DNA of 63,627 nt from the IMG/VR virus record IMGVR_UViG_3300021341_000078, positions 1-63,627 of that record. One strand, given 5' to 3'. Positions within the stretch are counted from its first letter, which is position 1, and every line of letters starts with the position of its first letter. The notes beneath the pieces are model-generated. The model made no database searches. It was not told the origin of the DNA and saw only the letters and a program-made list of their open reading frames with translations. The stretch is from a virus. The position numbers were made by a program, and so were the translations under genes. Shown here one piece after another: positions 4,052-63,627 of the stretch.

Positions 4052-4061
4052 ATAGAGTCGG

Positions 4062-4537: not shown

Positions 4538-4611
4538 TGGAGCTAGTCGGAGTCGAACCGACGACCTCTTGACTGCCAGTCAAACGCTCTAGCCAGCTGA
4601 GCTATAGCCCC
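4538..4611 (-). tRNA. tRNA-Ala(GGC)
   Basis: A 74-base cloverleaf. The 7-bp acceptor stem carries the G3:U70 wobble that is the alanine identity element. There is a D-arm GCTC...GAGC, an anticodon loop CTGGCAG with anticodon GGC, and a T-arm with GTTCGAC. CCA is not encoded. The 3' end points left, toward the integrase remnant, so the phage genes on the right lie on its 5' side and were not inserted through its 3' end. Confidence 0.95.
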
Positions 4612-4761
4612 ATTACTGTGTTTATCGCTTCTTGTCTCTTGTCTTATATCAAATGTGACAAGTTCTTATGACAATAAATGACAATTTCGACCGCGAACAT
4701 AAAACAAAAATAGCACTCAAACAATTCCCGTGCTAATATTTTAATCTTTTTCTGAGACACT
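4612..4761. other. Probable left boundary zone of the element
   Basis: 150 bases between tRNA-Ala and the first phage-like gene. It contains TGTGACAAGTTCTTATGACA-type short repeats (tgacaa/tgacaat) but no gene. The left attachment site is likely here or nearby; it cannot be fixed without the right end. Confidence 0.35.
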
Positions 4762-6786: not shown

Positions 6787-6791
6787 AAACT

Positions 6792-8549: not shown

Positions 8550-8654
8550 AAAAACAGCTGGTGTGTGACAGCTGCTTTCCCTTTACTTGTGGTGTGTAAT
8601 GATAGTAATAACGTAATTAGAGAAATTATCTTACACCTACTTATTACACAACAA

Positions 8655-22898: not shown

Positions 22899-23759
22899 CT
22901 AGTATATGTATGTTTCTCTAAAAGAAATGCTTACTGGTATAGTTGTGCTACCGTTCCCATCTAGTACTACTATCTCATTTAGTCATGGGTTCAGGAATAC
23001 AGGCTCTCAGCTCTCTCTGTTCGCTGATATATCGTTACCGTTGTCAGTAACTACTAGCTGAGAGAGTGGATCGTTGTTTGGGTTTGTGGTGTCGTGTACA
23101 AGTAGGGTAGTAGATCCGTTCAGCCTGTATTGACGGTTGTTTGTGAAGTTGATAATCTGGCAGTTCGAGCAGCTACCAGTCACCGTAATAGTACAAGGAG
23201 CAAGCCAGTTACCGTTGTTCGTAACAGATAGCGCATTTGTGTAGACTCCTAGCGTGTTTGGTAGTGTGTTGCTTAGTAGATTACCTGTAAATGTTCCTGT
23301 TGTACCAGTAACCGTAGTAGTTGTTGTAGAAAACACCTCTGGTCACTCTGCGTACAGTGAGAAGCTGAATCTTATGTAAGGATCACACACATCATTGGTA
23401 GGTGCTGGCATCCTAAACACCTTAGCTTTTACTGTTCTATCGTTACCAGCGTCATCCTGCCAAGTGAGATCATAGAAAGCGTTATCTGTAGGGTTAGGTT
23501 CTGGAGCTATGAGTGAAAAAAGGTTATTCCAAGGGGTGTGTCTTTCGGCTTTCGTGTATCAAAAGATTATACCTTCAAACTCGAATATCCTACCACCTGC
23601 AAGCGTGTTACTACTATACGTTCAGTGGAAGTTAGCTCTGTTGAAGATATCTGTCCTAAGCGGTACGTTCCTATCAGCGCTCTGTAGTACTATCTTGTTG
23701 GTAGCGCCTAGTGTGTCAGCAAAGCTTGTTCACTTGTAAGATCGGTTCTGTCCTATCAT
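22899..23759 (-). CDS. Distal tail protein-like (Dit)
   Basis: 286 residues. Follows the tape measure with TAATG overlap, the usual place for the distal tail protein. Beta-rich; a central Thr-rich linker (STTTTTVTGTTGTFTG) separates the N-terminal tail-interacting domain from a C-terminal galectin-like region with CTITVTGSCSNC. The Cys-x2-Cys is unusual. Five UGA-Gly codons. Confidence 0.72.
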
Positions 23760-26713
23760 TATCTAATGAAGTTACGTTCTAAATTACTTGCAACCTCTGG
23801 ACTGGTAACATTAAATGTTTGGTTTGTTGTGTTGTTGTTTGTAGTGCTTCCTGCTCACGTACTAGATATAGATCTAGCTATCCTCTGAGCCTCCAGAGCT
23901 TTCTCAATTAACTCATCGTACAACTCTTTTCTTCTAGAAACCTCTATCCCAAGCCTTGCAGTAACCTCTTCTTCAAAGCTGATCTGCTTGTTCTTTACGT
24001 TTTCTAGTATCTCTAGTTCTAGTTGCTTCTGCTCTTGTAGTCTCTCTGTCTCTGTAGCGAGCAATTCTATTTTCTGCTCTATAGCTTGTACTTCTTTGTC
24101 TCTTTCTTCTAGTATTCTCTCAGCAGCAGAAAGCCCTGCTTGTCTAACAGCTTCAGCTCTTTCTTCAGCAGTAGTATTAGCCTCAATAAGCTCTTTTTCC
24201 CTCTGTAGAGCTAGTATTCTTTCACTAGCAGCATTTCTTTCTTCTGACGTGCTATCATCATCGTTCAAAATAGATCTTGCTTCAGCTATATCTTCATCTA
24301 CGTCCACTCATCTACTAGCTAGGTCAGTTTGTGCATCAGCGTTTATTTGCTCTATTTCGCTTCTCAAGTCTCCTATTTCCTGTACAGATTCTTTGATCTT
24401 GTCGGTTAGTTCGTCAACTCTATCTTGTTGATCTTCTACTGCATCTCAGATAGCATCATACACTTCCTTAGCCTCCTTTTCTGCGTCTTTTAGAGCATCT
24501 GATCTTCTCTTTTCTGATTGTTTTTGTAGCTCCTGTATCTCTTTTTCTGACTCCTTGATGATCTTTTGTCTTTCTTTTTCCGCCTCATCAGTGTCGCTTA
24601 CTGCTCTACTTCTTCTTCCTCCTGAACTACTACCTCCTCAAGCAACGCTTGTCTCAAAGAACCTATCGAAATCTTCTACGTCTTGTCTTGTTTCCTTGAT
24701 CTGAGCAGAAACAGCTTGTAGTCTAGCCGCTTGTGCGACTCTATCAGCATCAAATGCAACAGGTCAAGAACCACTAGCAAAGATATCTGTAGCAACTCAC
24801 ACCAGTCTAAGAGAATCTGCTAGAGCTATGATACTATCTATTGTTCCTAGAGCCTCTTGTTTTATTGCGTTCAGTTGCTCCTGTGAGTTAGCGGTATTTA
24901 GAGAAGCAAACACACCATTCAATGTTCTCGTAATGCTAGAAGTGGAGTCTAGCGTTAATCAAGCCTCATCTGCTCTTGTTTGTAGCTCAGACAGTTCTTG
25001 TACGTAGCTATCTATGTCGATAGTACCGTTAATAAGCTGTTGTCACAGGTTATCTAAAGCTGGCACTAGCCCCTCTACTACCTGTGTTTGTACGCTGGAC
25101 ACAAATTCTCACACTCTCTGTATCTCGTTTCCGTACTCATCAGCGCTAATCTCTCAGTTCTTAAACTGAGTAGTCAGATCATCTATCTTGTCGTTCAGTA
25201 ATCCAAGAGCCTCTTCAGAGGTCTTTGCTTCTTCGGTTATTTCCTCAAACGTAAGTCCTAGACCACGAGCCTCGTTTACTATTTCTGAAAGTGGCTTTCC
25301 TATATCCTCCAAACCGTCAGCGAGAAACTTACTGAACCTTGTTGCGGCTTCTGTAGCTCTTACCAAAGCTGGCACAAAGTTCTCACCTATTTCTGCTCTG
25401 TTTTGTCTTATCTCTTCTCTAAGCTGTCAAAGTCTCGCCTCTGTAGTCTGGAATCTCTTCTCTGCTTCTTCTTGTAACGAGTTTTGTGTCTCTAGTTCCC
25501 GATTCGCTGTTCTAAGCGCATCAGAAAGTATATCACTACCAGCAGCAAGCGATAGGAAAGCGTTTCTGGTTCTTACGTTAGATCAGAAGAGGTCGTCAAT
25601 AATGTTCACAGCATCTTCTCCAGACTCAGCTAGTCCTTCGATCAAAGATGTAAACGCTTCACCTGCATCGTCTCTAAATCTTTGTGCGAACTCTTCAGAA
25701 GTTTGTCACGCTAGATCTGCAAACTTCTGCAACTCGTCACCTCCAGTAGATACCGCAGCCTGTATAGCAATAAACGACTTACTAACAGCTGTACCTCAAG
25801 CTTCTGCTTGTATACCAAGAGAAGAAAGTGATGTAGCAATAGCCTGTAGGTCCTGTTGTGCGAATCACGCAGCAGCACCAGCAGAAGAAAGCCTTTGTGT
25901 GAAGGTCAATATCTCTCTCTCAGTAGTAGCAAAGTTGTTACCTAGCTTTACGGTAACAGTCGCTAGCTCCTCAACTCTATCAAGCGGAATATTAAGTACG
26001 TTCGCGAGTCTAGCAAAATCTGTAGCAGCCTGTTCAGTAGTAATATTGGTGGTTGCTGCAATCTTTACTACCGTGTCAGTAAATGTTCCTATATCGTCTA
26101 CAGCCACACCCAACTGACCAGCTAGTTCAGCTACTCTTGCTATCTCCTCAAAAGGTAGTCCAAGGCTAGTAGATAGCCTTCATAACTCTTTTCTTAGCAA
26201 CCCAAACTGTATTTCTGTAGCGTCTACCGTTTTTCTTACTCCTGTGAATGCGCTTTCAAAAGCGATCACGTCTCTAACCCCTTGAGAAACCTGCCTACCA
26301 AGCGCCACAATACCAGCTCACACAGCCCCTATAGCCGTTCAAAATCCAAGAACCCTACTAGAAAGGCTACTAATGCTTCCTGAAACCTGATTAAACTTAG
26401 ATTGTAACCTAGATAGCGCTGGGTCTCCAGTGTTGGTAAAGTTTGTGAGCCTTCTTCTAGCCTCTGTAAGATCTTTTTTTGCTCTCTCCAGATCTATCCT
26501 TAACTCTCTAGGAGCTTTCGTTATATCATCAAATTTCTTTACCTCGTTCCTGAGGTTCTGTACTCTCAAGAAAGCGTTATCTATATTGATCTCTAGCTGT
26601 TTTCTTAGCTGTGGGTCTAGTGTTTTTAGTGTATCACGAGCCTTAGTGACACCGTCTCATACTCCATCGGTGTTCACTACAATCTTGGCTTCAAGTGGCT
26701 CTAGTAATACCAT
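23759..26713 (-). CDS. Tail tape measure protein
   Basis: 984 residues, the longest helical protein of the late operon. The N-terminal 130 residues are coiled coil. A TMP domain follows (FESAFTGVRKTVDATEIQFG, LAGQLGVAVDDIGTFTDTVV), then hydrophobic Ala/Gly helices, and the last 350 residues are Glu/Lys/Arg-rich coiled coil. It sets tail length and occupies the tube lumen; a protein of this size implies a siphovirus tail of roughly 150 nm. About 18 UGA-Gly codons are scattered through it. Confidence 0.9.
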
Positions 26714-27396: not shown

Positions 27397-28275
27397 TTAT
27401 TGTTGCCAAGTTTTCTTCCAAACGATGTATAGACCTCCATCCCTGCAAGTGAACTCAGCTGGACTACCAGCGAAATCAGTTCTACTTCTGTTGACGTAAG
27501 TTCTAGCAAGTTCTCCTGTCAATGCTGCTTTTGAGAAATAAGCGATAGTCTGAGAATAGTTTGTCAGACCGTTACTTGAATCTACACTACCAGCCTGAGC
27601 ACAAGAAACAAACTTGTACAACCCCAAAGGAATACTTTGTTTTTCTACTCTATATCCTGTTAGTTGCTTGTCTCTAGGTGTGTAATCGTAAACGATAACT
27701 AGATCCTGAGCGATGGTAGTAACACTACCTGCAATAGCTGGAACAGTAACTACTGTTCTACCTAGTGCGTCTTGTGTTACTGTGTAATCAGCAGGAGCTA
27801 TAACACCATCCACAGAACCTGTTACAGAAGTAACAGTGATAGCAGAACCGTCTCCGTTTTGGTTACATAGAGCGATAGCAGTAGCTAGTGCCCAGTTTCC
27901 AGAAGCCACAGTTTGCGGAAATCAAGGGACAGCAGCACCAGTAACGCTAACAGTGCTAGTTCCTAGCATATTTGCTAGTACGTCTAGGTTATTTACGTCT
28001 AACCAAGTGAAGCTGATAGATGGGATGATCTTTGCTGAAAGATCAATAGTACCTACATCGCAGTTATCTACGATGATCTCTTCTTCTGAATCTAGAGTGT
28101 GTCCTTCTGAGAAATCTTGGATCTGTCCTACTGTAGAGTAAGCATATGTCTCAAGATCACATCTAAGACTTTCTAGGTTCGCAGCGGTTGGTGTAGCGAA
28201 TGTTCTGCTACTATCGAAGTTTGTTGAGTAGTACAGATCACCAGCCGTAGCCAACTTATCAAGTGTAAGTGTCAT
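27397..28275 (-). CDS. Major tail (tube) protein
   Basis: 292 residues. Beta-rich, with IPSISFTWLDVNNLDVLANML and AQDLVIVYDYTPRDKQ as in Bacteroidota siphovirus tube proteins. It sits between connector genes and the tape-measure region. The only in-frame UGA is codon 118 (VP-G-FPQ); the other glycines, about 20, are GGN. In a standard-code cell translation would stop there. Confidence 0.75.
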
Positions 28276-30642: not shown

Positions 30643-31821
30643 TTATGCAAGAGGACAAGCCATAGAGATAGTCTTATCTAGACCTGCTTTCTCGTTTGCG
30701 ATATCGAAACCGAAGAACATAGTAACATCCCATAGGATAGCGTCACTGTATTCGTGAGTAACGATGTTCATGCTTTTACCGAAAGCGTATTGTACAGCGT
30801 TTCTGTGCATCAAGATACCTTGGATGTTTGTTGTAGAAGTTTGTGTGAACTTACCACGTGCATCCAAAGCACCAGCAGATATTACTGTACCGTCTGCTTC
30901 ACAGAAAGCTGGCATCTCTTGTGTAGAGTATGCTTCTACTCCCTCTGGAGCTAGTACGAATCCACCTCTAGTATTAGTAGCGTTACCACCGAATACGTTT
31001 TGAGTAGAGTAGTTAGAATCGAATCTTACCTTGTTAGCAAATGTGTTTGACAACAAGAATAGAAGATCGTTAGGGTTGTTCACGTAGTTTACAACTCCAG
31101 TAAACATATCCTGTACTACACCTCTTGAGTATGCAGCAGCACCGTTAGTAACACCATTAGCGATAGCGATCTTTCTGATACCGTTGTTACCAACAGTAGA
31201 AGCGTTTTCATGGTATGTTGTAGGTACAACTTGACCAGCATAGTTGATGTTAGTAGCCGTAGCATCTGTATCACCGTTGATGATGTAGCTTTCAATTGTC
31301 TTGTTAGCAGCAGCAACAATCTTTTGCTCGATTAGAGCAAGCATGTTTGTTTCTGTTACTCTAGACAATTCTTCTACTGAGATAGCGATCTGAGTAGTGA
31401 ACTTCTTCATATTGATAAGCAACTGATCTGTTCTCACAGCGTTGTTGTTGCTGATATCGATGAAGTTCTGCACACCTGTTCTCTCGTATCCAGAATCGAA
31501 GTAATCTGCTTCACCAAGAACGTTAACTCTTGCAGAATCAGCAGTATCGATCTGACCGTGATTACCTCTCAATTTAGAAAGAAGCTCAGACTGTCTGCTG
31601 ATCATAGAGTATAGTTCACTCTTGTATTCAACAGGAACTCTGATCTCAGCACCGAAGTCAGTATTAACTCAAGACATGATTTCGTTTTGTGCTTTCTGTC
31701 TAAGGTTTTTCTCCTCAGTGAAAGACTTCTCAGCAGCTTCTAGAACCTTTCCAGCGTCTTTTCCTGCTACTTTTGCAGCCTTTGTTAGGGCTGTCTTAAA
31801 ACTTTGATCTACTAGTGACAT
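30643..31821 (-). CDS. Major capsid protein, HK97 fold
   Basis: 392 residues. N-terminal delta-like helical segment of about 60 residues (LTKAAKVAGKDAGKVLEAAEKSF), then the N-arm and the HK97-type body: AISVEELSRV, ALIEQKIVAAANKTIESYII, and the C-terminal AILWDVTMFFGFDIANEKAG. Follows the protease-scaffold gene by 25 bases. The only UGA is codon 51 (MS-G-VNTDFG); about 24 other glycines are GGN. The single UGA falls early, so standard-code translation yields only a 50-residue fragment. Confidence 0.88.
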
Positions 31822-31846
31822 TTGTAGTAAATAAATAGATATAAAA

Positions 31847-33173: not shown

Positions 33174-34499
33174 CTATGATTCAGGCTGTGGCTGTTGTGG
33201 TAATCTGTTAGGTATGTACTGATCTAGTATTTCATCGTTTACCTCTTCTAGTTCAAACTCTGTTCTATACTCGTTTCTGTTCTTGATGCCTCTGTCTACC
33301 TCCTGCATAGCGATCTCTCTTTCCTTAATCACGTCTCTAAACTCTGCGTTCTTACACTTGAACTCTCAATCGAACTTAGGGTCAAAGTATTTCTTGTATG
33401 CTATGGTCATAGTGTCGCTTAGTAGTTTACCGTATGTGTCGATAGTGCTGTTACCTTGTCTCACAGTCATGCTTTCGATTTCAGAAAAAGCTCCAGTTTC
33501 TTTCTGGAGTCCTACGAGTCTGGTGTCTAGCATGAATATCACCGCAAAGTCTTTGTCGTTTTCTTTTCTGATGTTGATGTAGTCCATATCTATGTTAGAT
33601 AGGTCTAGCGTTGTCACGTTCTGTACTATGTCAGAGATAAGCGGCTTGTATGAGTTGCTAGAACCACCAAACTTGTTGTTCCACATCTCAGCAAAAGCTT
33701 TTACATCCTCTGGGTTCTGGATCTTCTCTTGGTCTAGTGCTACCATAACATTAGGTACAGCGTTGTTCTTGAAGAAGTATAGCTGTCTCTTGTTCGCTTC
33801 TTGGTTAGTTAGTGCCTCGATTACTATTCTCTGTAGCTTAGAGTAACCGTACATAGGACGGAAAGGGTCTCTAAGCATAACCATGTTTACAAACTGTTTA
33901 GGCAAGAACTTCTCTATCTCGTTTTTGATAACGTAGTGATAGTGTTTGATCTCTCCGAACTTGTCGAAAAACTTCTTAACACCTCTAGTATCAAGAACCT
34001 TTACGTACCCATCTTTAGGGGCTTTGTTTAGTAGGTTAATCTGGTTAGGTATAAGACTAATCTCACCGCTACAGAAGTACTGCACAAAGAAGTCTCTAAT
34101 GAAATTATCGAAAGAAAGGTTGTCTGTCACTCATGTGCGAAAAAACAAGCTAGCTTGTTGCATAGCTGAGTTTGCTCCACTATCCTCTCTTACCTCTTTG
34201 GTCTCTGGATCTATAACACAGAACCCATCACGACCGACCATGTCTGTTATTTTATCTATGTACGCACCAGCCATCTTGTTAGTCTTGGCTATTCTGTACA
34301 TAGTGTTGCTGTCTATAGCCACCTTTCAGCAACCTTCTAGGTTAGATACTTCACGTCGTCAAAACTGCGATAGCCCAGAAACAAACTTCTCTTTTGTTGT
34401 CCTCTGTGGTACTACCTTGGGTGTTATTTCTTGAGAGATTTGACTTACAAGGGCGTCAATATTCTGCTCGTTGAAGTTTTGTATGAACTGGTTCGACAT
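33174..34499 (-). CDS. Portal protein
   Basis: 441 residues with four UGA-Gly (QFGRR, EGCGK, RTGVTD, FDGEF). Middle region FLPKQFVNMVMLRDPFRPMYGYS KLQRIVIEAL, and GGSSNSYKPLISDIVQNVTTLDL-NIDMDY, show the phage_portal pattern, including the wing/stem segment. The C-terminus is acidic and Pro/Gln-rich. First gene of the late operon. No Shine-Dalgarno is visible before the ATG. Confidence 0.85.
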
Positions 34500-34747: not shown

Positions 34748-35515
34748 ATGAATAAATTTAAGTTTTTTGTTGTAGTCTCGATTTTACTTATTGGTGTTTT
34801 ATATTATAGAATGTCTTTAGGTTCTTCTTATGCATATGAAGAGGAAACTGTGTTTACTGACTTAGAAGAAGCCTCTGAACCAGAAATAAAGTTTGACCCT
34901 CCCCAAATTTTTGCTGAACCTTATGATAAGAAAGATAACTTGAAGGATAAATTACTTAAAAAATGCAATATTTCTAGCCTAAAGAAAAAACTGCGAAAAT
35001 CCTGTGATTATAACGAAACTAGAAACCTTGCTGCAATAATTGCTTCCAAGTCTGAAGGAGAATTCAACATTGGTCAGGTATGTGATATTTGGGATTATTG
35101 TAAAGAGAAATGGGCGTATGTAGATGATCCTGCTACCTCTTTCATTTCCTCCGCATCCAATACAATCAGAATAGGGTTTAAAGGAGATTGTGATGATTTT
35201 GCGGTTGTAAATTCAGCTTTAATACTAGGTATTGGGGGAAGAGTACGGATTAATGTGGCTTATAATGATGATGGAGGTCATGCTTTTACTGAAGTAAATG
35301 TTGGGGATAGTAACATTGATGCCATACAGGCTTACATAAACTATCGATATAAAAAAAGATTAAAACAAAAAGTGAAAATTAACTACAGAGTTTCGTCCGA
35401 TGGAAACAAATGGTTGAATCTTGATTGGTTCTCTGAATATCCTGGTGGAAAGTATTTTAATTTTAATCATGGAACTTCTTATTATATATTGCAAGATTTC
35501 TGTGAAAGTTTTTAA
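34748..35515 (+). CDS. Transglutaminase-like domain protein, exported
   Basis: 255 residues. N-terminal hydrophobic segment (FFVVVSILLIGVLYYRM) acts as anchor or signal. Around residue 140 is FKGDCDDFAVVNSALIL with the catalytic-type Cys, then GGHAFTEVNV with the His: a transglutaminase-like core. Likely cysteine protease/amidase-like or cross-linking activity outside the membrane. AT-richer, with different codon choice (TTA, AAA, TTT) from the surrounding phage genes, opposite strand, no UGA, TAA stop. First gene of an inserted block; its end overlaps a downstream frame. Confidence 0.68.
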   Translation: MNKFKFFVVVSILLIGVLYYRMSLGSSYAYEEETVFTDLEEASEPEIKFDPPQIFAEPYDKKDNLKDKLLKKCNISSLKKKLRKSCDYNETRNLAAIIASKSEGEFNIGQVCDIWDYCKEKWAYVDDPATSFISSASNTIRIGFKGDCDDFAVVNSALILGIGGRVRINVAYNDDGGHAFTEVNVGDSNIDAIQAYINYRYKKRLKQKVKINYRVSSDGNKWLNLDWFSEYPGGKYFNFNHGTSYYILQDFCESF

Positions 35516-35534
35516 CTTTGAGAAAATTGAAGTT

Positions 35535-36209
35535 ATGGTATTCTACACTAGTGATGGAAAAGAAACATTTGGACCATTTTCTTTAGAAGAGTTAAAAGAA
35601 CAAGAACTTGTTAGTACTTCTCTGGTTTATAGTGAAGGAACGCAGTGGGTGAAAGCAATAGACTTACCTGAACTAGCAGATTTCTTTAAGGCCAAGGTCC
35701 CACCACCACCTCACATTCCACCTCCGCCACCTGTTCACCTAGTCAATCAAAATGTTTACCAAAGTAAGATATCTAACGATAAGCCTTTCTCTTTTGATTT
35801 TTCACAAGTGAAGGATAAGGCCTGGATAGTCGCTCTTGTAGTGTTTTTGATAATTGGCGGATTTGGGGTAAACTATTATCAAAATGTCAAAGAGACTGCA
35901 CGTTTAGAGGCGGAGGAAGTAGCAAGTAAAGAATTAAAGAAACAAGAAGAGGCAGCTAAAGCTGAAGAACAACGTATTAAGGAAGTCGAAGGAAAAATCG
36001 CAGAATCTAAGGAAAGGCTTGCGACACTTCAAGGTGATCTAGCCTATGCGCGCCGCAATCAAAGAGAGGTTGAAGAATTCGATATAACCAGAACGCCAAA
36101 GCAAGGTAGGGAGCAGAAGGCCGAAGCGAGAAGGGAAGTTAATAGAATTCAAAAACAGATCGACCAGGAGAAAAAAAGAATAGAAGATCTTGAGGCAATG
36201 CTATACTAA
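35535..36209 (+). CDS. GYF_2-domain membrane protein with coiled coil
   Basis: 224 residues from the ATG at 35535. Residues 1-60 (FYTSDGKETFGPFSLEELKE...VYSEGTQWVKAIDLPEL) are a GYF_2 domain, common in Bacteroidota membrane proteins. A proline-rich linker, one transmembrane helix (AWIVALVVFLIIGGFGVNYY) and a long charged coiled coil follow. GYF_2 normally binds proline-rich peptides. Standard code; stop TAA. Second gene of the inserted block. Confidence 0.78.
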   Translation: MVFYTSDGKETFGPFSLEELKEQELVSTSLVYSEGTQWVKAIDLPELADFFKAKVPPPPHIPPPPPVHLVNQNVYQSKISNDKPFSFDFSQVKDKAWIVALVVFLIIGGFGVNYYQNVKETARLEAEEVASKELKKQEEAAKAEEQRIKEVEGKIAESKERLATLQGDLAYARRNQREVEEFDITRTPKQGREQKAEARREVNRIQKQIDQEKKRIEDLEAMLY

Positions 36210-36294
36210 TTGGTCTATTACCGATTGACAGAGATTTGTACGGCCAGATTGACCGAAACAACTATCTTCAAATTTCAGTAAAATTAAATTGAGT

Positions 36295-36323
36295 AGAGCG
36301 TATCTAGAGTTTAGATACGCTCT
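36295..36323. terminator. Strong 12-bp hairpin between cargo genes
   Basis: AGAGCGTATCTA and TAGATACGCTCT form a perfect 12-bp stem with a five-base loop. There is no long T-run, so it may be a bidirectional transcription stop or a structured leader of the next gene. Confidence 0.5.
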
Positions 36324-36356
36324 ATTTAAATAGAGTACGTTCCGTCAGATACTATC

Positions 36357-37610
36357 ATGGGAATAAAGTCATTGATTTACCTTGTAACCGCTCTAGTAAT
36401 TAGTGTCGTAATCTTAGACATTAAAAGCGATATACACAAAAAAAGAACATATGATGAAGACTACAGTAAAGTCCTAAACATCAAGTATGGACTATTAAGC
36501 TTAGATGAGTGGAAAGACAAGGCTTATATCGTACTAAGACAAAACATTAATGAATTCAACTTCAATAATTCAGACAAGCAGACACTAAAGAGCCAGATTG
36601 AAGAACTACTATATACTCTTTTAGATGAAGTTAAGGAGGTAGTTGAGGAAAGTAGTACTTTGAATGGTGCGATTCCTAGCGAGGTGGCGAATTTTCTACG
36701 ATCGTTGGTGATCGATTTTGGAGTCATTGAGAATAATATACCTGATTTTGCCGATTCCATAATGGCAGAACTCAATGATCCTCGTAATCAAAATCAGGTA
36801 AAGAGCATAATCAATACCAAGTTGAGATCTATTCTGGAACTTGATGTGCCAAGGACTGACTTAGAGTTTAGATCATTCTATTTTGAGTTATATAACTGCA
36901 CAAGTTACTTGGAGTGTGGTGAAGAAATCAAAAACAAGTTAAAGCCTATAGAGGAAAGCATTGAATGTAAGAAGAAAATTCTATATGGATGCGCGGCTTT
37001 ATTGATTTTTATTGCCTTGTTCCCACAGAGAAAAGTAGATTTAGGAGATATTGTTCCTTTAACAATGGCAAGTATAGGTCTACTGTATGCAGGGATATAT
37101 TATCCAATGATTTCTGTTGATGCCAGGGTTAGTGAATTTGACTTTAAGTTGCTAGGAATGAATGTAGAATTTGGAGAACAAGTTATATTCTATCAATCGA
37201 AGAGTATTCTTGAAGTCGTAGGTTTGCTAATAAGTGAATCCAATATAGATAGTGTGTTTGTCGGGTTTTTAATCTTATTTTTTAGTGTCCTATTTCCGAT
37301 ATCCAAAATGTTGCTTTCCCTTGTATTTTACTTTAACCGTAAGAGCAGAGTTATATTCTATATAGTTACTAAGCTTAGTAAATGGTCTATGGCTGATGTA
37401 TTTGTGGTTGCCATCTTTATGTCGTTTATAGGCTTACGTAGTTTAGTGAAAAGCCAGGTTCTGAGTATTGAGAGCGGAAACCCATTCATTGACATTGTAG
37501 CAACCGACAACACCTCTTTAGAAATAGGTTTTGTCTGCTTCACCTTCTATTGTTTAATCAGTATTTTGATGTCTGCGAAAATTGGGAAATTACCAAAACA
37601 CTTCAGTTAG
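36357..37610 (+). CDS. PqiA-like membrane protein
   Basis: 417 residues. An N-terminal membrane segment and a soluble region of about 190 residues are followed by four hydrophobic helices. The last half has PqiA (paraquat-inducible protein A) features: YYPMISVDARVSEFDFKLLG, FLILFFSVLFPISKMLLSL and LSKWSMADVFVVAIFMSFIG. PqiA proteins belong to envelope lipid-transport systems. The soluble N-terminal domain is an extra part without known relatives to me. No UGA, TAG stop. Third gene of the inserted block. Confidence 0.78.
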   Translation: MGIKSLIYLVTALVISVVILDIKSDIHKKRTYDEDYSKVLNIKYGLLSLDEWKDKAYIVLRQNINEFNFNNSDKQTLKSQIEELLYTLLDEVKEVVEESSTLNGAIPSEVANFLRSLVIDFGVIENNIPDFADSIMAELNDPRNQNQVKSIINTKLRSILELDVPRTDLEFRSFYFELYNCTSYLECGEEIKNKLKPIEESIECKKKILYGCAALLIFIALFPQRKVDLGDIVPLTMASIGLLYAGIYYPMISVDARVSEFDFKLLGMNVEFGEQVIFYQSKSILEVVGLLISESNIDSVFVGFLILFFSVLFPISKMLLSLVFYFNRKSRVIFYIVTKLSKWSMADVFVVAIFMSFIGLRSLVKSQVLSIESGNPFIDIVATDNTSLEIGFVCFTFYCLISILMSAKIGKLPKHFS

Positions 37611-37632: not shown

Positions 37633-38970
37633 TTAGTTTAATATAATTCATCCAAAGGAGTATACTTTAGGAGTCAACTTCCAGTAGCAACGGAACATAA
37701 TACAATCTGCAAAGTCTGGAGACCTACCGATCTTTTCTATGATGTCTTCCTTCTTTATCATTCTGATCTTAGTGTCCTTATCCATGTCTATCTGACACAT
37801 AACATCTAGCTCTTCTATTATTTCTTCTTTGAATCTGTCGTCGTTTATTCTGATGCTTCTTATGTGATCTCTAAGCTCGAAGTAACACTGTGTTTTTAGG
37901 TTCTGGTAGCTAGGCTTGAACTTGTCTATTTTCTCTTCTCTTGACTGTACTGGGGTAGAGTTGTTCTGGAATCATTTACATCTTAGGTTGTCCCTAACTC
38001 CTGCTCAGATACCGTCTGCATCTACAATTATATTCTTACGGTTCACTTTATGCTTCTGTGAGAACTGTACAATCTTATCCTGTAGCACATCTAGTGTGCA
38101 TGTATCATAAACAACCATATCGATCACTTCTCGTCAGTCTCGCACCATTATCACGGCTCTATCTCTACCCATTCTAGCAACGTCTGCTGTTATATATTTC
38201 TCTCAGTTATTCTTTGGGTTTGTGAACATATCACACAGGTCATCATAGTCGTACAACTTTCAAGGCGTGTCATCGTAATCAAAGTTACCATAGAGCAGTC
38301 TTTGCTTCTGCACCTCTGGTAGCTCCTTTAGGTTCTCTATGTAGTGTTCTGAGATGTATTTATTGTCTGTAGCTAGTGAGGTGACAAACTTTGTATTATC
38401 CGCTTGTTTCTTGTCTCTAAATGGCTTGTAGAACTTTTGGTATACCCGACCCTTGTCTGGGTTAAATGTAGCCAGCACTTTACCTATTATGTCATACTGA
38501 TCTAGTTTGTACCTGCATCTAGAGAGTAAAATATTGAACGCTAGCTCTTTGATCTCGTTACCCTCGTCTACGAATCATCAACACACCTCTATGGATCAGA
38601 ATCTAGAGTACATTGGGTCTGAGGGCATCCAACTAGCGTCTAGCAAGAATATCATAGAACCATTTCGATAGTGTATCTGTGAGTCTTGTTGTTTGTATGT
38701 TACATGTTCTTTGGTAAGACCTGATTTAGGTATTACGTCACCCATAAGTGTCATTAGTGTAGATTGTTTTAGTCTCTTGAGTTCGTTACGTGCGATGAAC
38801 CGTCTGGATCAGGGCTTAGCGATGCACATAGTGTTTATCCATGTACATCATAGGTAGGACTTACCTCATCACGCTGCACCTCAATATCAAATAGAAGTAG
38901 TAACCATGTCGGTTAGATACTCCCAACAGTCTCCCTGCTTCTTAGTTAGTGATATCTCTAGCGTGCTCAT
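37633..38970 (-). CDS. terL: Terminase large subunit
   Basis: 446 residues, 15 in-frame UGA codons. The packaging-motor ATPase has Walker A YGGAAGGGKSYLG (five of the glycines are UGA), Walker B-like VCGGFVDEGNE, and the C-terminal nuclease acids in YITADVARMGRD and IIVDADGIGAGV. The stop is TAA at 37633; a UGA in the final FGGIILN is also sense. It starts immediately beside a TTGACA-16-TATAAC promoter. The portal lies 3 kb away, separated by the foreign cargo block. Confidence 0.93.
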
Positions 38971-39101: not shown

Positions 39102-40136
39102 ATGTTCGTACTAAATCTATTGGCTGGTATCACAGCCGTTTTGGGTGGCTACTACAGGTTTTTGAAGTTCTCTCGAATAAATGATGAGGTTGAAGAATAC
39201 AAGAAAAAGAACGGTAGAATATGGGAAAAAATAGATAACTCGAAATTCAGAGAACTACCAGCCATTGTTATTAGGTGGTATCTACGACTAAGTACGCCTT
39301 TCAAGAATATTTACGCGGAGCTTGAAAAAAGAGGCGTAAGTGGGAAAGTTCCTAAGTTCTTTTACTATGGCTTTATGATAATAGGCACAGCGTGTTTTAG
39401 TCTTTCCTTATTCGCTTTTCAAAACCACCTACTTTACTTTGTTTTCTTGCTTTTGTTCTTGGGTATCCCTGTAGTTTTTCAAAATGATCAGACCTTTAAT
39501 TTATCTGAAGGTCAGGGAATTTACGCTTTTGGTAAGTACATGACTATACTTTTCCTTAGCCTTTTGATAACATCTTCTTCGCTCATCCTTGGGGATGAAG
39601 TAACTTGGAATGATTTTAGTATTGTATCAGACTTAGAAGTAAGGACACTAGTTTTTTCGATACTTTTTAGCAATGTAATATTTGATCTTCTGACCGTATT
39701 CATAACGTACTTCATTCTTAAGAGAGCACTAAACAACCGACGATTCCTTTTCCTCTTTATATCCCTTGACATCATAATGTCAGCGTGTTTCTCTATTTAC
39801 TCCATCTATTTTGGCTTGCTAGGCACAGAGCAGAGTATAGACCTTCTGGAAGCAACACGTATGCTTATAGGTCTTTCTCCAGATGGTAGTATGTGGCAGT
39901 TTGGGTCTTACTTTTGGGCGATGCACACTACCTTCATACCGACACTAATATACTTGAGTGTGTTAATCCTGATGATTATAGCAAAGTACATAACGATACC
40001 TGTAGCTAATTTTTTCTACAGAGCAAGTGTTACTGAAGACCCATACATGATGTACGCCTTTTTCTACGTTACATTGTCTGGTATCTTCCTTTTGATAAGT
40101 TTTGTAATGGGATATTACTTAAAAAGCCCCTCGTAA
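39102..40136 (+). CDS. Polytopic membrane protein
   Basis: 344 residues from ATG at 39102, chosen over an in-frame TTG at 39066 because the leader ACCAACACAAACCAAAAACTATG resembles other starts in the element. Seven or eight hydrophobic segments, an N-terminal basic loop, no conserved motif recognised. About 20 glycines and no UGA, on the strand opposite its neighbours, TAA stop: readable in both codes. Could be superinfection exclusion or another prophage-expressed envelope function; this is inference. Confidence 0.65.
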   Translation: MFVLNLLAGITAVLGGYYRFLKFSRINDEVEEYKKKNGRIWEKIDNSKFRELPAIVIRWYLRLSTPFKNIYAELEKRGVSGKVPKFFYYGFMIIGTACFSLSLFAFQNHLLYFVFLLLFLGIPVVFQNDQTFNLSEGQGIYAFGKYMTILFLSLLITSSSLILGDEVTWNDFSIVSDLEVRTLVFSILFSNVIFDLLTVFITYFILKRALNNRRFLFLFISLDIIMSACFSIYSIYFGLLGTEQSIDLLEATRMLIGLSPDGSMWQFGSYFWAMHTTFIPTLIYLSVLILMIIAKYITIPVANFFYRASVTEDPYMMYAFFYVTLSGIFLLISFVMGYYLKSPS

Positions 40137-47719: not shown

Positions 47720-47768
47720 TGATATGGGGGAGTAGTGATCTTGGAACTAAAACTTTTTGTTGGAGATA

Positions 47769-47799
47769 TTGACTTTATAAAATATATGTTTTATATTTG
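47769..47799 (+). promoter_or_regulatory. Bacteroidota-type promoter
   Basis: TTG, 20-base spacer, TATATTTG, matching the Bacteroidota -33 TTG / -7 TAnnTTTG consensus. The same layout occurs before the paralogue (48279-48309). It also fits a loose TTGACT-17-TATATT sigma70 site. Confidence 0.62.
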
Positions 47800-47902
47800 A
47801 ACGACCTAATAAATCATTCTCCTATATCCCTGCTCGAACTCGCTTACCAAATTGACCCAATTCGCGCCTAACGTAGGTGCAGGTATTTAAAACATTGTAG
47901 GG

Positions 47903-48259
47903 ATGTCAGTGAAAAAAGTACTTAAGAGAAAAGTAGGAAGCGTGAACGTTTACGAACTCACAGAAAAAGAACTAATAAGCCTAGAAAAGGGCTTGCCAAA
48001 GATTCTCACGATTCTGAGTCCAGTCCTTGGGTGCTTCGCCCTTGCTACCTCCTTCATACGAGATATTCTCAACAATAAACTCTCCCAACAAGATTTTATC
48101 TTATTACTTGTTACGTCTAGTTTCTTTATTGCCCTTGGGTTCTTTGTCCTGTTTTATAATCTAGTTATAAAGAGAGAAAAGCAGACATTATTATCCCAAA
48201 TACGCAAGAAAAGATCCAGATCTAACAATTCAATTGCATCTCAGAAAAGACCTAAATAA
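47903..48259 (+). CDS. Small two-TM protein, paralogue 1
   Basis: 118 residues: VYELTEKELISLEKGLPKIL, then ILSPVLGCFALATSF, two membrane helices and a basic tail. Closely similar in layout to the next gene. Six glycines, none UGA; TAA stop. Own promoter and no gene overlap, unlike the packed recoded operon around it, so it can be expressed independently. Function unknown; a prophage-state membrane factor is plausible. Confidence 0.65.
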   Translation: MSVKKVLKRKVGSVNVYELTEKELISLEKGLPKILTILSPVLGCFALATSFIRDILNNKLSQQDFILLLVTSSFFIALGFFVLFYNLVIKREKQTLLSQIRKKRSRSNNSIASQKRPK

Positions 48260-48278
48260 AACTAATTGTTGCAGACGG

Positions 48279-48309
48279 TTGACAATACACAATAAAAGTT
48301 TTATATTTG
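48279..48309 (+). promoter_or_regulatory. Bacteroidota-type promoter
   Basis: TTG, 20-base spacer, TATATTTG; spacing and -7 box identical to the promoter at 47769. Confidence 0.62.
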
Positions 48310-48357
48310 TTGTGTTGTCCTCTTGATTCCATGAACTGATGCAAAACTATAACGCTA

Positions 48358-48702
48358 ATGCACATTAGTCGTAACTTAGTTCGTCGAATTAGATCTGTTG
48401 ACATTTATGAAGTAACCGAAAAAGAGCTTAGTCAGCTTGAAAGAGGAACACCTCAAATAATCAATACCATAAGTCCAGTATTAGGATGTCTTGCCTTTGG
48501 GACTTCCTTTCTTCGAGATCTACTCTATCAAGAACTTTCCAGACCAACATTTATTGTTTTTACTCTTCTTGCTAGTACATCATTCGCAATAGGGTTCTTT
48601 CTAATTCTACAAAGCGTAGCTACTAGGAGGGAAAAAAGAGAACTATTCGCAAAAATTAGGGAACAGAACAAAGTCAACAATACTATTGCAACTGATAAAT
48701 AA
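48358..48702 (+). CDS. Small two-TM protein, paralogue 2
   Basis: 114 residues; IYEVTEKELSQLERGTPQII and ISPVLGCLAFGTSFLRDLL mirror paralogue 1. Tandem duplication with divergence. No UGA among its four glycines. Confidence 0.65.
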   Translation: MHISRNLVRRIRSVDIYEVTEKELSQLERGTPQIINTISPVLGCLAFGTSFLRDLLYQELSRPTFIVFTLLASTSFAIGFFLILQSVATRREKRELFAKIREQNKVNNTIATDK

Positions 48703-48724: not shown

Positions 48725-48852
48725 ACAACTTGCCAGTTGTAACAGTGGGTATACAGTGGGAGTCCATTATTTGGGTTCAAGGGTTGCTCGCAAGAGTAAG
48801 GAGCTGTTACAGAAAACCTCATAGGCTTGGCAAGTTGTCCTATGGGGTTTTT
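48725..48852 (+). ncRNA. Structured RNA ending in terminator
   Basis: The terminator is AAAACCTCATAGG pairing with CCTATGGGGTTTTT. Its loop is complementary over 11 bases (TGGCAAGTTGT, 48828-48838) to ACAACTTGCCA at 48725-48735, and GTAACAG (48739) pairs with CTGTTAC (48804). The terminator loop can therefore form a pseudoknot or an alternative antiterminator. No tRNA fold was found in it. Could be a small RNA or attenuator upstream of the replication genes. Confidence 0.55.
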
Positions 48853-48869
48853 ATTTTATCTAATAAAAC

Positions 48870-49574
48870 ATGGCGAACTGAAAAAGATCTTTTGTCTTAT
48901 ACAAAGATCTATTACATACATTCCAAATGCTTACAGATGAGGAAGCAGGAAAGCTAATAAAGCATTTGCTTTCATATGTTAATGATGAAGCTCCTGTGTT
49001 AGAAGATAGGATGTTAGAAATAGTATTTGAGCCTATAAAACAATCTCTAAAGAGGGATTTAGATAAACGACAAGAGATCAAAAAAAAGAGGTCAGAGGCT
49101 TGAAAGCAAGGTTGAAGACCTAAGAAAAAGCAAAAAAAGCAAATGCTTTCTGGGAAAGCAAAAAAAGCTGTAAGTGTTAATGTAAGTGTAAGTGATAGTG
49201 TAAGTGTAATAAATAATAAAAAAGATTTAGAGAAAACCTTGGAAGATTTCTATCAGCATAGGAAGAAGATCAAATCACCTATGACAGATCTTGCTAAGAA
49301 GAAACTTTTGAACAGATTAAATGAGTTGGGTTCTACTGAACAGGAAAAGATTTTGATTCTAGAAGAATCTATACTAAACTGACGGAAAGGTGTATTTGAA
49401 CTGAAAGAAGAAAACAAGCCTAGAGATGAAGACTGGCGGCTAAGAGAATACCACGCCCTGAGAGAGGACTGGGGCAAAGCGTTTAGAGAAAAGTACTGAC
49501 CTGAGAAACACGTAGAGATCAAAGCTATCTACAAAAAGAAATGCCTAGACAGTGTTTTATATCCTGACAAATAA
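48870..49574 (+). CDS. DUF6291-like replication protein
   Basis: 234 residues, five UGA-Gly. The start RSFVLYKDLLHTFQMLTDEEAGKLIKHLLSYV has the DUF6291 pattern, and KRSEAGKQGGRPKKK is a basic linker in which two of the glycines are UGA. C-terminal helical domain. It precedes the DnaB-like helicase by three bases, the usual place of phage replication initiator/loader proteins. Confidence 0.8.
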
Positions 49575-49576
49575 AA

Positions 49577-50407
49577 ATGGAGAACGTACGAGACTTCAAT
49601 CAGGATCTAGAGATGGACTTTGGGAGGCTAGCAAGGTATACACGATGACTAGATGTTCTAGATAAAAAGTTTGGGAAACCAGACAACGGAGATCTGATAG
49701 TGCTAGTTGGTTATCCTTGAATGTGAAAGACAGAGTTTTCCTTCTTCATGTCTAAGCAGAACCTGAAAAAAGGTAACAGAGTTGCCTACCTATCGTTAGA
49801 GCTGACCAAGAAACAACTGATACACAGGATAGCAAGAAAGAACGCGTGAGTTTCGTACCAAGACTTCCAGAACGGAAACTATTCTGAAAGACAAATAGAA
49901 ATAATCAAACAAGAGATACAGTGGTTCAAAGACCAAAAGAAACTATGGATGATTTGAGCTAACAACGAACCAAGCATAGATGAGGTTGAAGAACTGATTA
50001 GGGAGTGTAACGATAAGTGATTCCAGATGATTGTCATTGACAACCTAGGGAAGATCGAATGATGTGCTACGGATCTAGACAGACAAGCGAAAGCAACATC
50101 GAAGCTACAGACCATAAAGAATGAGTTAAACCTAGACATAACACTCCTGCACCATCTTAGAAAACCTAGTAAGTCTGATGTATTAAAACCGTGATGAGGA
50201 TCTGCGTTTAGTGGGAGTCAAAAGATCAAAGACAACTGCTCAGTGATGGTAGAGATACGAAGAGATCTAGACCCCTACGAGACCAGACCAGAAAAGAAAG
50301 CAGAGGTGTTATTCCTGCAATACAAACAGACATGGGATGGTATAACCTGAGCACAAGAGATGTACTTCAACAGATGAGAATATAACGAGCATTATATCCC
50401 TAACTAA
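49577..50407 (+). CDS. DnaB-like replicative helicase (RecA fold)
   Basis: 276 residues, 11 UGA-Gly. Walker A VLVGYPGMGKTEF (the two Gly before Lys are UGA), RVAYLSLELTKKQLIHRI, Walker B QMIVIDNLGKI, LDITLLHHLRKP, and PGGGSAFSGSQKIKDN. Lacks the N-terminal DnaB primase-binding domain, so it is a C-terminal-domain-only helicase/ATPase. Unwinds or remodels the fork during phage replication. Confidence 0.88.
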
Positions 50408-50847: not shown

Positions 50848-51891
50848 ATGTATACTTATAAGTTTAGAATCTACCCCAATAAAGAACAGCAAGCATTACT
50901 TGCAAATAGCTTCTGATGTTGTAGGTTTGTTTACAATAAGTGAATAGCGACTCGGCAAGAGATGTACAAAAAGTGAGAAAAGGCAAACTACTATACGCTT
51001 GCGTGACTACTAAAAGAACGGAAGCAAGAGCTGCCACGATTAAAAGTCGCATACTCGCAGTCATTGCAACAGTCCTTAAAGAATCTTGACCGTGCTTACA
51101 AAAACTTTTTTGCTAAGCGTAGCAAGTATCCACGCTTCAAGAAGAAGTTTGCAAAACAATCTTGTCACTTCCCACAACACACAAGCATAGAGGGGATGAA
51201 AATCAAGTTCCCTAAACTATGACTTGTGAGGTGTAAGCTCCATAGGAGTGTAGAGGGATGTATCAAGAATATGACTATCACACGTAATCCATCTTGAAAG
51301 TACTACGTCAGTATTTGCACTGACCATGCTCCACAAAAACCACGTGGCACTGGTAGTGTGGGCATTGATGTTGGTATTAAAGAACTTGGCTACTGTAGTG
51401 ATGGTTATGTGATAAAGAATCCAAAGTTTCTCAAGAAAGCTATGAAAAGACTAAAGAAACAGCAGAGATTCATGAGTAGAAAAAAGAAGGGAAGCAGAAA
51501 CAGGAATAAACAAAGAGTAAGAGTAGCAAGACTTTATGAGAAAGTAACCAGCCAGCGTAGGGATTACCTACACAAAGTGTCTACTAGACTACAGAAGAAC
51601 TATGAGACAGTAGTAGTTGAGGATCTAAATATCAATAATATGGTAAAGAACCATTGCCTTGCACAAGCCATTATAGATGTAAGTCGATGAATGTTCTTCA
51701 CTATGCTAGACTACAAAACGAATTTAATCAAGGTAAAGCCACACAACACATCCAAGACCTGTAGTAGGTGTGGTCATGTAAAAGAAAAGCTAAGTCTTGA
51801 AGTGAGAGCGTACACTTGCGGTGCGTGCTGACTGATAATCGATAGAGACTACAATGCTAGTCTCAACATATTAGCAAGGGCTACTACTTAG
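50848..51891 (+). CDS. tnpB: TnpB (IS200/IS605-type RNA-guided nuclease), recoded
   Basis: 347 residues, eight UGA-Gly, full length. RuvC-like triad: Asp in GIDVGIKELGY, Glu in TVVVEDLNINN, Asp in LIIDRDYNASLN. Zinc finger TCSRCGHV...YTCGACG. N-terminal bridge: SFGCCRFVYNKGIATRQ. No TnpA adjoins, so this is a TnpB-only element, mobilisable in trans or acting as a guide-RNA nuclease. Its UGA codons mean it works only where UGA is Gly. Confidence 0.93.
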
Positions 51892-56702: not shown

Positions 56703-57163
56703 TTGCTTTACATCTTACGTATTATACAATGTGAATTATTATTGCACTATGAATCGTTGCGTTGATCTTTTTATCGTTTAAGCTCTCGTGTAGCAGTTGC
56801 AATACACAAGCGATCAACCCACAACAACCAAAGATTACTCCAGCAAAGACCACTGTTTTCACTAAGTGATGAAGTAACCTAAAAGCACCTAAGAAAAGAA
56901 AGACCCCTAAGACTGACAAGCTGAATGAGAACAGAGCACAAATCGAATTACAGATACTAGCAGGTTGGACCAATGAAGATATCGCAAAGTACTACTGAGT
57001 AGGTAGTTCGACTGTTCAGAGATGGAAAGTTGCTAGAGGGATAAAGAGACTATCTAAAAGACAAATAGAGAAGGGGAAAGAGATGCTAGGGGAGAGATAT
57101 GATGTAAAGAAGTTCCGTAAACAAGCTAAAGAAGCAGGATTAATGCAGACTTGACAAATGTAA
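56693..57163 (+). CDS. Membrane-anchored HTH protein
   Basis: 156 residues. An N-terminal transmembrane helix (MGIIIALGIVALIFLSFKL) and CSSC, a basic linker with GG, then NEDIAKYYGVGSSTVQRWK as helix-turn-helix. Membrane-tethered DNA binding could anchor replicating DNA or act as a regulator. Six UGA-Gly. Confidence 0.7.
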
Positions 57164-57208
57164 TTCCAGAGTTATAATATAGATACTTTACTTCTAACAC
57201 ATACAAAA

Positions 57209-60903: not shown

Positions 60904-60935
60904 AGCCCCCTAGGAAACTAGGAGGCTCTTTTTTA
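60904..60935. terminator. Bidirectional terminator
   Basis: AGCCCCCTAG pairs with CTAGGAGGCT, with one unpaired base on each side, followed by six T (plus) and A-rich sequence before it (T on minus). It separates the recoded early operon from the standard-code lysogeny module. Confidence 0.75.
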
Positions 60936-61158
60936 GTTCAGATTCGAGACGTTCTTGGAACAGCTCTGTCAGGTTCTCTGAGGCTTGCGCTTCACTGTAG
61001 GGAATCCTGACAATCAAGCAATCATCCTCATAGATAACCTTATCTACTTCATCTATACATTCTAGTATAACGAATAGATCTTGTTCAAACTGAGCTTCTA
61101 AGAACTCTACGTCAATCAGATCAAAGAGATCTTCTTGTACTGCTCTCGTAATTGTCAT
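60910..61158 (-). CDS. Small acidic protein
   Basis: 82 residues, many Asp/Glu, no glycine, so neither code can be told from it. Lies downstream of the membrane gene to its right, in the same direction. Unknown function. Confidence 0.55.
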   Translation of the reverse strand: MTITRAVQEDLFDLIDVEFLEAQFEQDLFVILECIDEVDKVIYEDDCLIVRIPYSEAQASENLTELFQERLESELKKSLLVS

Positions 61159-61873: not shown

Positions 61874-62335
61874 ATGGAAAAGAAAAGAGTACCTAAACGT
61901 GTTGCAGAAATCCAAGTAACCTACTCAGCTAAAATTAAAAAAGAAGAACGGCATCAAGTCAAATGTAGCCTAGACATCTACCAGATAGTCATGTCTGAGA
62001 TCTATGGTGATGATATTGAGTACGTAGAGACGTTCTACGTTATAATGCTTAATAGATCTAGTGAGATATTGGGTTATAAACAAGTTAGTAAAGGAGGATC
62101 ATCGGGCACGGTTGTCGATGCAAAGGTGGTATTCGCGCCAGCGTTAAAGTGTCACGCGAGTAGTATACTCTTAGTACACAATCACCCTTCATCTAGCCTA
62201 TACCCTTCACAACCTGACAAGAACCTAACAAAGAAACTAGTAGACGCTGGGAAGCTACTTGACGTACTTGTCTTAGACCATTTGATCGTAACTATGGAAG
62301 GCTATTACTCCTTCGCAGATGAGGGTCTTATTTAG
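61874..62335 (+). CDS. RadC-family JAB-domain protein
   Basis: 153 residues. Metal site VHNHPSSSLYPSQPD (H-x-H...D), plus LDVLVLDHLIVTMEGYYSFA. RadC/JAB proteins of this type accompany integrases of Bacteroidota mobile elements; catalytic role not settled. No UGA; TAG stop. Confidence 0.85.
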   Translation: MEKKRVPKRVAEIQVTYSAKIKKEERHQVKCSLDIYQIVMSEIYGDDIEYVETFYVIMLNRSSEILGYKQVSKGGSSGTVVDAKVVFAPALKCHASSILLVHNHPSSSLYPSQPDKNLTKKLVDAGKLLDVLVLDHLIVTMEGYYSFADEGLI

Positions 62336-62370: not shown

Positions 62371-63627
62371 TTATAGCATATCTATCGCGTTCTGTAGTTT
62401 CTCTCTATCTCTCACTATACCCAAATACTTATTGGTAGTCTTTATTGAAGCATGATCCATAAGAGTTTTAACCGTCATTATGTCTACACCTTTTGATAGC
62501 GCTAGGGTAGGGGCTGTGTAACGTCCACTGTAGAAGCTAAAGTATCTACCATCGCTGAAACCTATCTTTTTGGAGACCCTCTTATAGCACTTATAGGAAT
62601 TGTCTCTCTCTCTTTTTGCCCTTCTCTCTGTCTCTACTGGATCTTTATCGAAACCATTTAGTATAGGTAGTATGTACTTACCTTTTGAGTCTATCTTTTT
62701 CAGTATCTCTAGTGCAGCCTCCTTCACAGGTTTCCCCAGCTTGTTCTCGAACCCAGTCTTTGATCTACTATACTTCCAAATGTCGTTTGTGATATCATCC
62801 CAACGCAACCGAGCTAGGTCTATAAGGTTCACCCCAAAAAAGAAATATGAGAGAACCCAGTAGGACATGTACTTCCATTCAGTGTCTGAGAAGGTGTTGT
62901 TGTAGTAATAGAAAACAACGCTTTCTTTTTCTTCCTCAGTCAGATCTCTAATTCTTTTCTTATTGGTTTTTTTCTTCCCTTTTCTTTTGCGCTCGTTTAT
63001 ATCATACCCGTTAGGGTTGTAGACTGTCTTAAAAGGGTTGTGCTTGGCTTCTATTATTCCCTCCTTGAGTGAGAAGGATATCAGTGTTTTTGTCCACTTT
63101 AGATAGTTGAAGCCGTTCATATCTCTCTCGTCGAAAGACTTTGTAAGTTTATTTATAGAGGACAGATTGAAGTCGCGTATTCGTTTATTGTCCAAGTCTG
63201 CTTTCTCAAATACAGGTATGAGTGCTAGATAGTTTTTTGCAGAAGATACATCACCAGACTCCACCTTGCGGTTGTATATGTCCATAGCAAACTCTCCTAA
63301 GCGCTTATCTTCTACCTGCTCAGTAGATCTATGCTTAGCTAACAGGCTAGAGAACTCTTTATAATCAAAGCTATCTATGAAATTATTCTGGTAGACGTGG
63401 TAGCAATCATCAAGGTACTGTCTGATATAACCATTCTTTTTCTGTCGACCTCTTTCGTGTACATTATAGCATCTTCTTTCAGAGTCCCAATTCTCTTTTA
63501 AGCAGGAATAGCCCTTGATCCTTTTCTTAGTGTTGTTACCTCCATACCTGATCTGTATGCAGACAGGGTGTGCACCATTTCTTAAAGTAACATGTTTGTC
63601 AAGGTAAGTGACAAAAGTAACCTTCAT
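62371..63627 (-). CDS. Tyrosine recombinase (integrase), Bacteroidota type
   Basis: 418 residues, complete, its ATG being the last three bases of the window. An Arm-binding N-terminus (TFVTYLDKHVTLRNGAHPVCI) and a SAM-like core-binding domain are followed by the catalytic domain: LIDLARLRWDDI, KYSRSKTGFENK, FYSGRYTAPTLALSKG and MDHASIKTTNKYLG with the nucleophile Tyr. The first catalytic Arg region is FFGVNLIDL, as in many Bacteroidota integrases. It drives integration and excision. About 20 glycines, none UGA. The attachment site should lie just outside the window. Confidence 0.9.
   Translation of the reverse strand: MKVTFVTYLDKHVTLRNGAHPVCIQIRYGGNNTKKRIKGYSCLKENWDSERRCYNVHERGRQKKNGYIRQYLDDCYHVYQNNFIDSFDYKEFSSLLAKHRSTEQVEDKRLGEFAMDIYNRKVESGDVSSAKNYLALIPVFEKADLDNKRIRDFNLSSINKLTKSFDERDMNGFNYLKWTKTLISFSLKEGIIEAKHNPFKTVYNPNGYDINERKRKGKKKTNKKRIRDLTEEEKESVVFYYYNNTFSDTEWKYMSYWVLSYFFFGVNLIDLARLRWDDITNDIWKYSRSKTGFENKLGKPVKEAALEILKKIDSKGKYILPILNGFDKDPVETERRAKRERDNSYKCYKRVSKKIGFSDGRYFSFYSGRYTAPTLALSKGVDIMTVKTLMDHASIKTTNKYLGIVRDREKLQNAIDML

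Follow-up and report, generated by a model that had tools for sequence, protein, structure and literature searches.

The window that we analyzed is the whole 63.6-kb stretch of DNA. The record, from IMG/VR, is linear and therefore comes without an attached host genome. Two small genes lie in tandem on its plus strand. Gene 1 (47903 to 48259) encodes a protein of 118 aa, and gene 2 (48358 to 48702) encodes one of 114 aa. Both genes end in TAA and contain no in-frame UGA. Their products are 43% identical (E value, 4e-36), which bears out the original prediction that the two are tandem paralogues. The proteins share a conserved N-terminal stretch around YExTEKELxxLExGxP, two hydrophobic segments at about residues 30 to 53 (weaker in copy 2) and 63 to 90, and a short loop with RDxL that is followed by a basic tail. 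They are predicted to be small hairpin proteins located in the inner membrane. An in-frame TGA is found seven codons 5' of the gene 2 ATG. Read-through of this TGA would give an ATG at 48331, and nothing in gene 1 corresponds to the resulting upstream extension. The two genes are 42% identical at shared fourfold-degenerate sites (19 sites), 40% identical at third codon positions, and 73% identical at second positions. The duplication is therefore old, and purifying selection seems to act on both proteins. Intergenic gaps of 183, 98, and 167 nt flank and separate the two genes, whereas the median gap in that operon is 11 nt, so the loose spacing described for this part of a packed operon was also found.

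The pair is surrounded by a recoded phage core that extends from 9436 to 60107. The window represents a prophage in which UGA encodes glycine; its in-frame UGA codons fall at glycine positions and are dense in the structural and replication genes. The core encodes the tape measure protein (23759 to 26713), the capsid (30643 to 31824), the portal (33174 to 34499), the terminase (37633 to 38970), a replication protein (48870 to 49574), and a helicase (49541 to 50407). A putative lysis gene, C39 peptidase-like, is at 9436 to 10500. Five proteins had a higher top family score when UGA was translated as glycine than when it was translated as tryptophan: the HNH protein (175.7 versus 132.5 bits), the helicase (107.3 versus 70.0), the terminase (102 versus 75.5), the methylase (247.8 versus 225.7), and the transposase (402.7 versus 373.7). 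The UGA=Trp code was therefore rejected. In genes with at least three UGA codons, UGA makes up 336 of 793 glycine codons (42%), and the UGA-free genes together have 196 glycine codons. Missing TGA stops were dropped as evidence, because the gene list was built with TAA and TAG stops and their absence is partly true by construction. The pair was correctly predicted to be UGA-free (P = 0.012), although it holds only eight glycine codons in total, so this property is weak by itself. The transposase gene (50848 to 51891), TnpB/OrfB-like by our own reading, has eight UGA codons and fits the UGA=Gly setting. Its best matches found were in cyanobacteria, at only 31 to 38% identity.

The recoded genes carry TTTTA or TTTA, often as TTTTAT or TTTTAG, near position -20 of the ATG. 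TTTA was present between -24 and -14 in 36 of the 50 recoded genes versus 0 of the 12 UGA-free genes (P of about 4.5e-6), with the start codons of some UGA-free genes being uncertain. A Shine-Dalgarno sequence was found in only 2 of the 50 recoded genes, and with a background of 8% this is no signal. TTTA looks like a non-Shine-Dalgarno translation start signal of this phage clade. The genes with neither UGA nor TTTA form a second class. It includes the pair, a RadC-like gene (61874 to 62335, plus strand), the genes of the left flank, and cargo genes at 34748 to 37610 and 39102 to 40136. The cargo is located between the portal and terminase genes and past the terminase gene, on the strand opposite the structural genes. 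Its products are transglutaminase-like, GYF_2-domain, and PqiA-like proteins and one protein without an assignment. The tyrosine integrase (62371 to 63627, minus strand), which has an Arm-DNA-bind_5 domain, is UGA-free over 22 glycine codons. Its start signal is unreadable because its upstream region is outside the window. The capsid gene and two other structural genes (27397 to 28272 and 15061 to 16479) have TTTA and only one UGA among many glycine codons, and the capsid genes of relatives contain no UGA. This UGA poverty suggests that UGA is avoided in highly expressed genes and that expression level also removes UGA. Therefore, freedom from UGA alone is no proof of lysogenic expression. A UGA-poor structural gene of 472 aa also repeats about 210 nt of its own sequence at 70% identity (15294 to 16001).

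The terminase of the window is 38 to 40% identical to those of Flavobacterium phage 11b, Cellulophaga phi10:1, and Bacteroides phage Versailles, and the TTTA signal is absent in these three phages. By using a DNA pattern that allows UGA at the Walker motif, we found 17 UGA-rich relatives with terminases about 36 to 51% identical to that of the window. The Walker motif points to a UGA=Gly code in these 17. TTTA precedes 69 to 86% of the recoded genes in five of the eight longer relatives (G007, G009, G010, G012, and G014) and 21 to 28% in the other three. Only two UGA-free genes (at least 100 aa and at least five glycine codons) were found in the eight relatives. Both have TTTA, and one of them is the capsid gene. 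No gene free of both UGA and TTTA was found in the same five relatives, which are well sampled. The window thus stands out from its relatives by its set of UGA-free, TTTA-free genes. An integrase match was present in 1 of the 17 relatives (L114, G010:C1:11510-12016), as an open frame with nine TGA codons. Hence, this integrase has in-frame UGA, whereas that of the window has none. The tRNAs that could be called in the UGA=Gly relatives were Trp(CCA), Pro, and Leu.

Each gene of the pair is preceded by the same promoter-like boxes, with different spacers between them. Promoter 1 (47769 to 47799) and promoter 2 (48279 to 48309), both on the plus strand, match TTGAC-N14-GTTTTATATTTG, which is equivalent to TTG-N20-TATATTTG. 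The latter motif ends 104 nt before the gene 1 ORF and 49 nt before the gene 2 ORF. There are exactly two matches to it in 63.6 kb versus 0.10 expected, and two matches were reached in 0 of 100 shuffles. The identical motif and equal TTG spacing that had been reported ahead of both genes are therefore confirmed. The duplicated similarity extends past the boxes noted earlier, because the block at 47745 to 47799 is 77% identical over 56 nt to its partner at 48254 to 48309. Between the copies, the boxes are identical at 17 of 17 positions (5/5 in TTGAC and 12/12 in GTTTTATATTTG), despite the divergence at the fourfold sites. Both promoters therefore look conserved by selection. By the 4- to 5-nt rule of PMC6847099, the transcripts are predicted to start at about 47804 and about 48314. 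A shared operator was rejected, because the TAAAA...TTTTA dyads in both spacers differ in half-site spacing.

A third promoter of this kind shows that the motif extends beyond the pair. This TTG-N19-TATATTTG site, at 61235 to 61206 on the minus strand, is 48 nt 5' of the UGA-free ORF 60910-61158, the class of which is uncertain because it contains no glycine codon. The TTG is 20, 20, and 19 bp upstream at the three sites. The window has four copies of TATATTTG, three of them in short intergenic DNA upstream of UGA-free genes. In the intergenic upstream DNA of 13 UGA-free genes, we counted three TATATTTG (0.04 expected; P = 8e-6) and four TAHHTTTG (P = 4e-4). Both P values overstate independence, because two of the three TATATTTG copies belong to the duplicated pair. 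The corresponding DNA of 52 recoded-class genes contained no TATATTTG and one TAHHTTTG, which is the chance level.

Primary-sigma promoters of Bacteroidota have TAHHTTTG at -7 and TTTG or TTG near -33 (PMC6847099, PMC9723704, and PMC7366714), and the upstream TTG/TTTG element is only weak (PMC6847099). TATATTTG fits this -7 element at both sites of the pair and at 61206 on the minus strand, and all three sites have a TTG at the expected distance of about 19 to 21 bp. The pair's promoters resemble the Bacteroidota type in TATATTTG, the TTG 20 bp upstream, and the AT-rich spacer. They differ from it in the TTGAC(A/T) box, which is nearer to sigma-70 than to the -33 element. TTG-N20-TATATTTG is also present about 70 nt before the repressor gene of Bacteroides phage Versailles, which has an integrase. 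The same two sites agree with the sigma-70 consensus (TTGACA, 16 to 18 bp, and TATAAT). With a 17-bp spacer, promoter 1 (TTGACT-17-TATATT) matches at 10 of 12 positions and promoter 2 (TTGACA-17-TATATT) at 11 of 12. However, sigma-70 sites with at least 11 of 12 matches are at the chance number in the window (3 versus 2.7 expected). A 12/12 site at 57151 to 57178 (plus strand) is 31 nt before a recoded gene (57209), and an 11/12 site at 39003 to 38976 (minus strand) is 6 nt before the recoded terminase gene. These two sites could be promoters of the recoded class. The proposal of a Bacteroidota-like promoter thus holds in part. In its favor are the three TAHHTTTG sites and the phage relatives from Flavobacteriia and Bacteroides, but sigma-70 fits the same letters. 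The recurrence of the TTTG tail at a third, separate site leads us to favor the view that the promoters most resemble the Bacteroidota primary-sigma type; the fit to sigma-70 keeps this short of proof.

A terminator-like hairpin with a U-run (48813 to 48856, plus strand) separates gene 2 from the recoded replication gene that starts at 48870. Its folding energy is -16.5 kcal/mol (z = -3.95), and its loop (48828 to 48837) is perfectly complementary to 48726 to 48735 over 10 nt. The structured stretch from 48725 to 48856 fits no Rfam family and is possibly an attenuator or a pseudoknot. The hairpin may serve to separate the pair's transcript from the recoded operon, or it may attenuate the replication genes. 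Folding of the predicted 5' leader of gene 1 (47804 to 47902, plus strand) shows a paired start region (z = -3.0), a fold that gene 2 does not share. We detected no terminator between the upstream recoded operon and gene 1. Therefore, lytic read-through into the pair from the upstream recoded gene is possible.

We found no relative of the pair by tblastn of phages (genes 1 and 2) and plasmids (gene 2 alone), by scanning viral contigs by protein, alignment, and DNA pattern, by scanning genome contigs, or among the ORFs of Bacteroidota phages and 80 terminase-related loci. The pair was also not found in the records of the 17 UGA=Gly relatives, several of which are fragments, or in that of L088. 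Neither protein had a usable match in Pfam, PHROGs, PADLOC, or PDB or a match above the cut-off in NCBIfam, and these collections revealed no homology to known exclusion, immunity, or defense families. Since no homologue was found, homology gives no functional clue to the pair. The two paralogues show weak alignments to one and the same stretch of TIGR01218, a tandem five-TM protein (4.9e-5 and 0.003), and one scrambled and two reversed control sequences did not produce this hit. Tandem membrane genes are the point of likeness. However, the scores of 23 and 17 bits are below the curated cut-off of 35, and we do not claim membership, because the family has five TMs and the pair's proteins have two.

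We suggest that a cassette with its own promoter was set into the early/replication operon of a UGA=Gly prophage and was then doubled, promoter included. The host primary-sigma RNA polymerase would transcribe each copy from a promoter of the TTG-N20-TATATTTG type, and the hairpin would probably halt the transcript ahead of the recoded replication gene. Because the pair has no UGA and its TAA stops are read the same under both codes, it would read alike with UGA as stop or as glycine and could be made in a repressed lysogen. It is probably made by the dormant virus. In this scenario, the pair is a duplicated moron that is transcribed by the host from its own promoters, is readable under both codes, and serves lysogenic conversion. 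We give this reading a probability of roughly 0.55. Of the moron hallmarks, a promoter of its own can be recognized from sequence alone. The pair also appears foreign to the operon, as it lacks both the UGA and the TTTA that the operon has and was not found in the 17 related records (several of them fragments). The one strong hairpin with a U-run behind gene 2 would be its terminator, or it may be an attenuator instead. The conserved boxes, the hairpin, and the lack of UGA and TTTA support the original prediction that the pair is independently expressed.

Our leading guess for the products is that they exclude superinfecting phage DNA at the membrane. An exclusion or immunity role is plausible by analogy, given the small size of the proteins, their two TMs, and the moron-like context of their genes. 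Like HK97 gp15 and P22 SieA (PMC10883804 and its reference 8), they would be small inner-membrane proteins encoded in a prophage, apparently from promoters of their own and with a terminator-like hairpin behind the genes. However, no sequence relationship to them was found, the pair consists of two tandem copies with one promoter each, and it is UGA-free within a UGA=Gly operon. The proteins may instead act in something other than exclusion, such as envelope modification or another host conversion, with the copies specialized for different partners. We rate this at slightly below even odds. Small basic two-TM proteins suit many roles, two diverged copies with their own promoters could have split a task, and the transglutaminase-like and PqiA-like products of the UGA-free cargo look envelope-related. 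Nothing specific counts against such a role, except that the large distance between the pair and the putative lysis gene disfavors a holin.

Several points weigh against the moron reading: the pair has few glycine codons, capsid genes of relatives are UGA-free too, no terminator or homologue was found as described above, and the promoter sites fit sigma-70 equally. As a rival explanation, these could be ordinary sigma-70 promoters in a UGA=Gly host, from Absconditabacteria or Gracilibacteria, with the trailing TG a chance feature kept by duplication and the UGA-free genes recent standard-code imports. Absconditabacteria use UGA=Gly (PMC10746230) and are listed as Shine-Dalgarno scarce (PMC10783764), as the recoded genes are. 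The pair's scores of 11/12 and 10/12, as well as the 12/12 and 11/12 sites directly before recoded genes (57178 and 38976 on the minus strand), agree with this explanation. So does the tRNA search, in which no suppressor tRNA (UCA) was called in the window with standard ARAGORN settings and relaxed settings gave noise among the matches listed. However, we consider it unlikely, since high-scoring sigma-70 sites occur at the chance number, the TTTG tail recurs at a site that was not duplicated, and flank genes with 33, 20, 29, and 22 glycine codons contain no UGA, unlike those of a code-25 genome. It is more improbable still that the promoters are leftovers of the duplication and that the pair is expressed from upstream only, within the lytic early operon. 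The block was indeed duplicated together with the gene, and no terminator separates gene 1 from the operon upstream. But the boxes have stayed identical although the rest of the comparison is saturated, wide gaps surround the pair, and the TTTA start signal of the operon genes is missing from it.

Beyond the pair itself, we tentatively propose two programs for the window, a division that we consider possible but doubtful. The lytic core would use UGA=Gly and TTTA about 20 nt before the ATG, and the lysogenic set (the pair, integrase, RadC, and cargo) would have no UGA, no TTTA where testable, and promoters of the Bacteroidota type. If so, a standard-code host would harbor a prophage of the UGA=Gly clade, and the pair would belong to the host-mode program of this phage. 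For recoded phages, one may ask which genes have to remain legible in the code of the host. The pair offers a clear candidate case of genes that stay readable in either code so that the lysogen can use them. The pair's promoters are directly testable in laboratory strains, and the TTTA/UGA split would serve as a sequence test for host-mode genes of such phages.

In the code-25 phages of Absconditabacteria and Gracilibacteria, UGA has the same meaning and is likewise dense within the structural and replication genes, and prophages of these bacteria are reported as likely compatible with code 25 only (PMC10746230). In contrast to these prophages, the integrase, RadC, cargo, and flanks of the window are free of UGA. 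A UGA=Gly prophage with a UGA-free integrase and flanks would be a departure from that report, if the flanks prove to come from the host. The left flank (1 to 9455) has no recoded genes. It encodes a lipoprotein-like amine oxidase, a 674-aa protein, a HerA/TraG-like ATPase, a Replic_Relax protein, and tRNA-Ala(GGC) (4537 to 4611, minus strand). The 3' end of this tRNA, a possible att repeat, has no second copy within the window. The tRNA-Ala, the amine oxidase, the HerA-like protein, and TnpB did not fix the host phylum. The hints about the host are that the phage relatives infect Flavobacteriia and Bacteroides and that the integrase carries Arm-DNA-bind_5.
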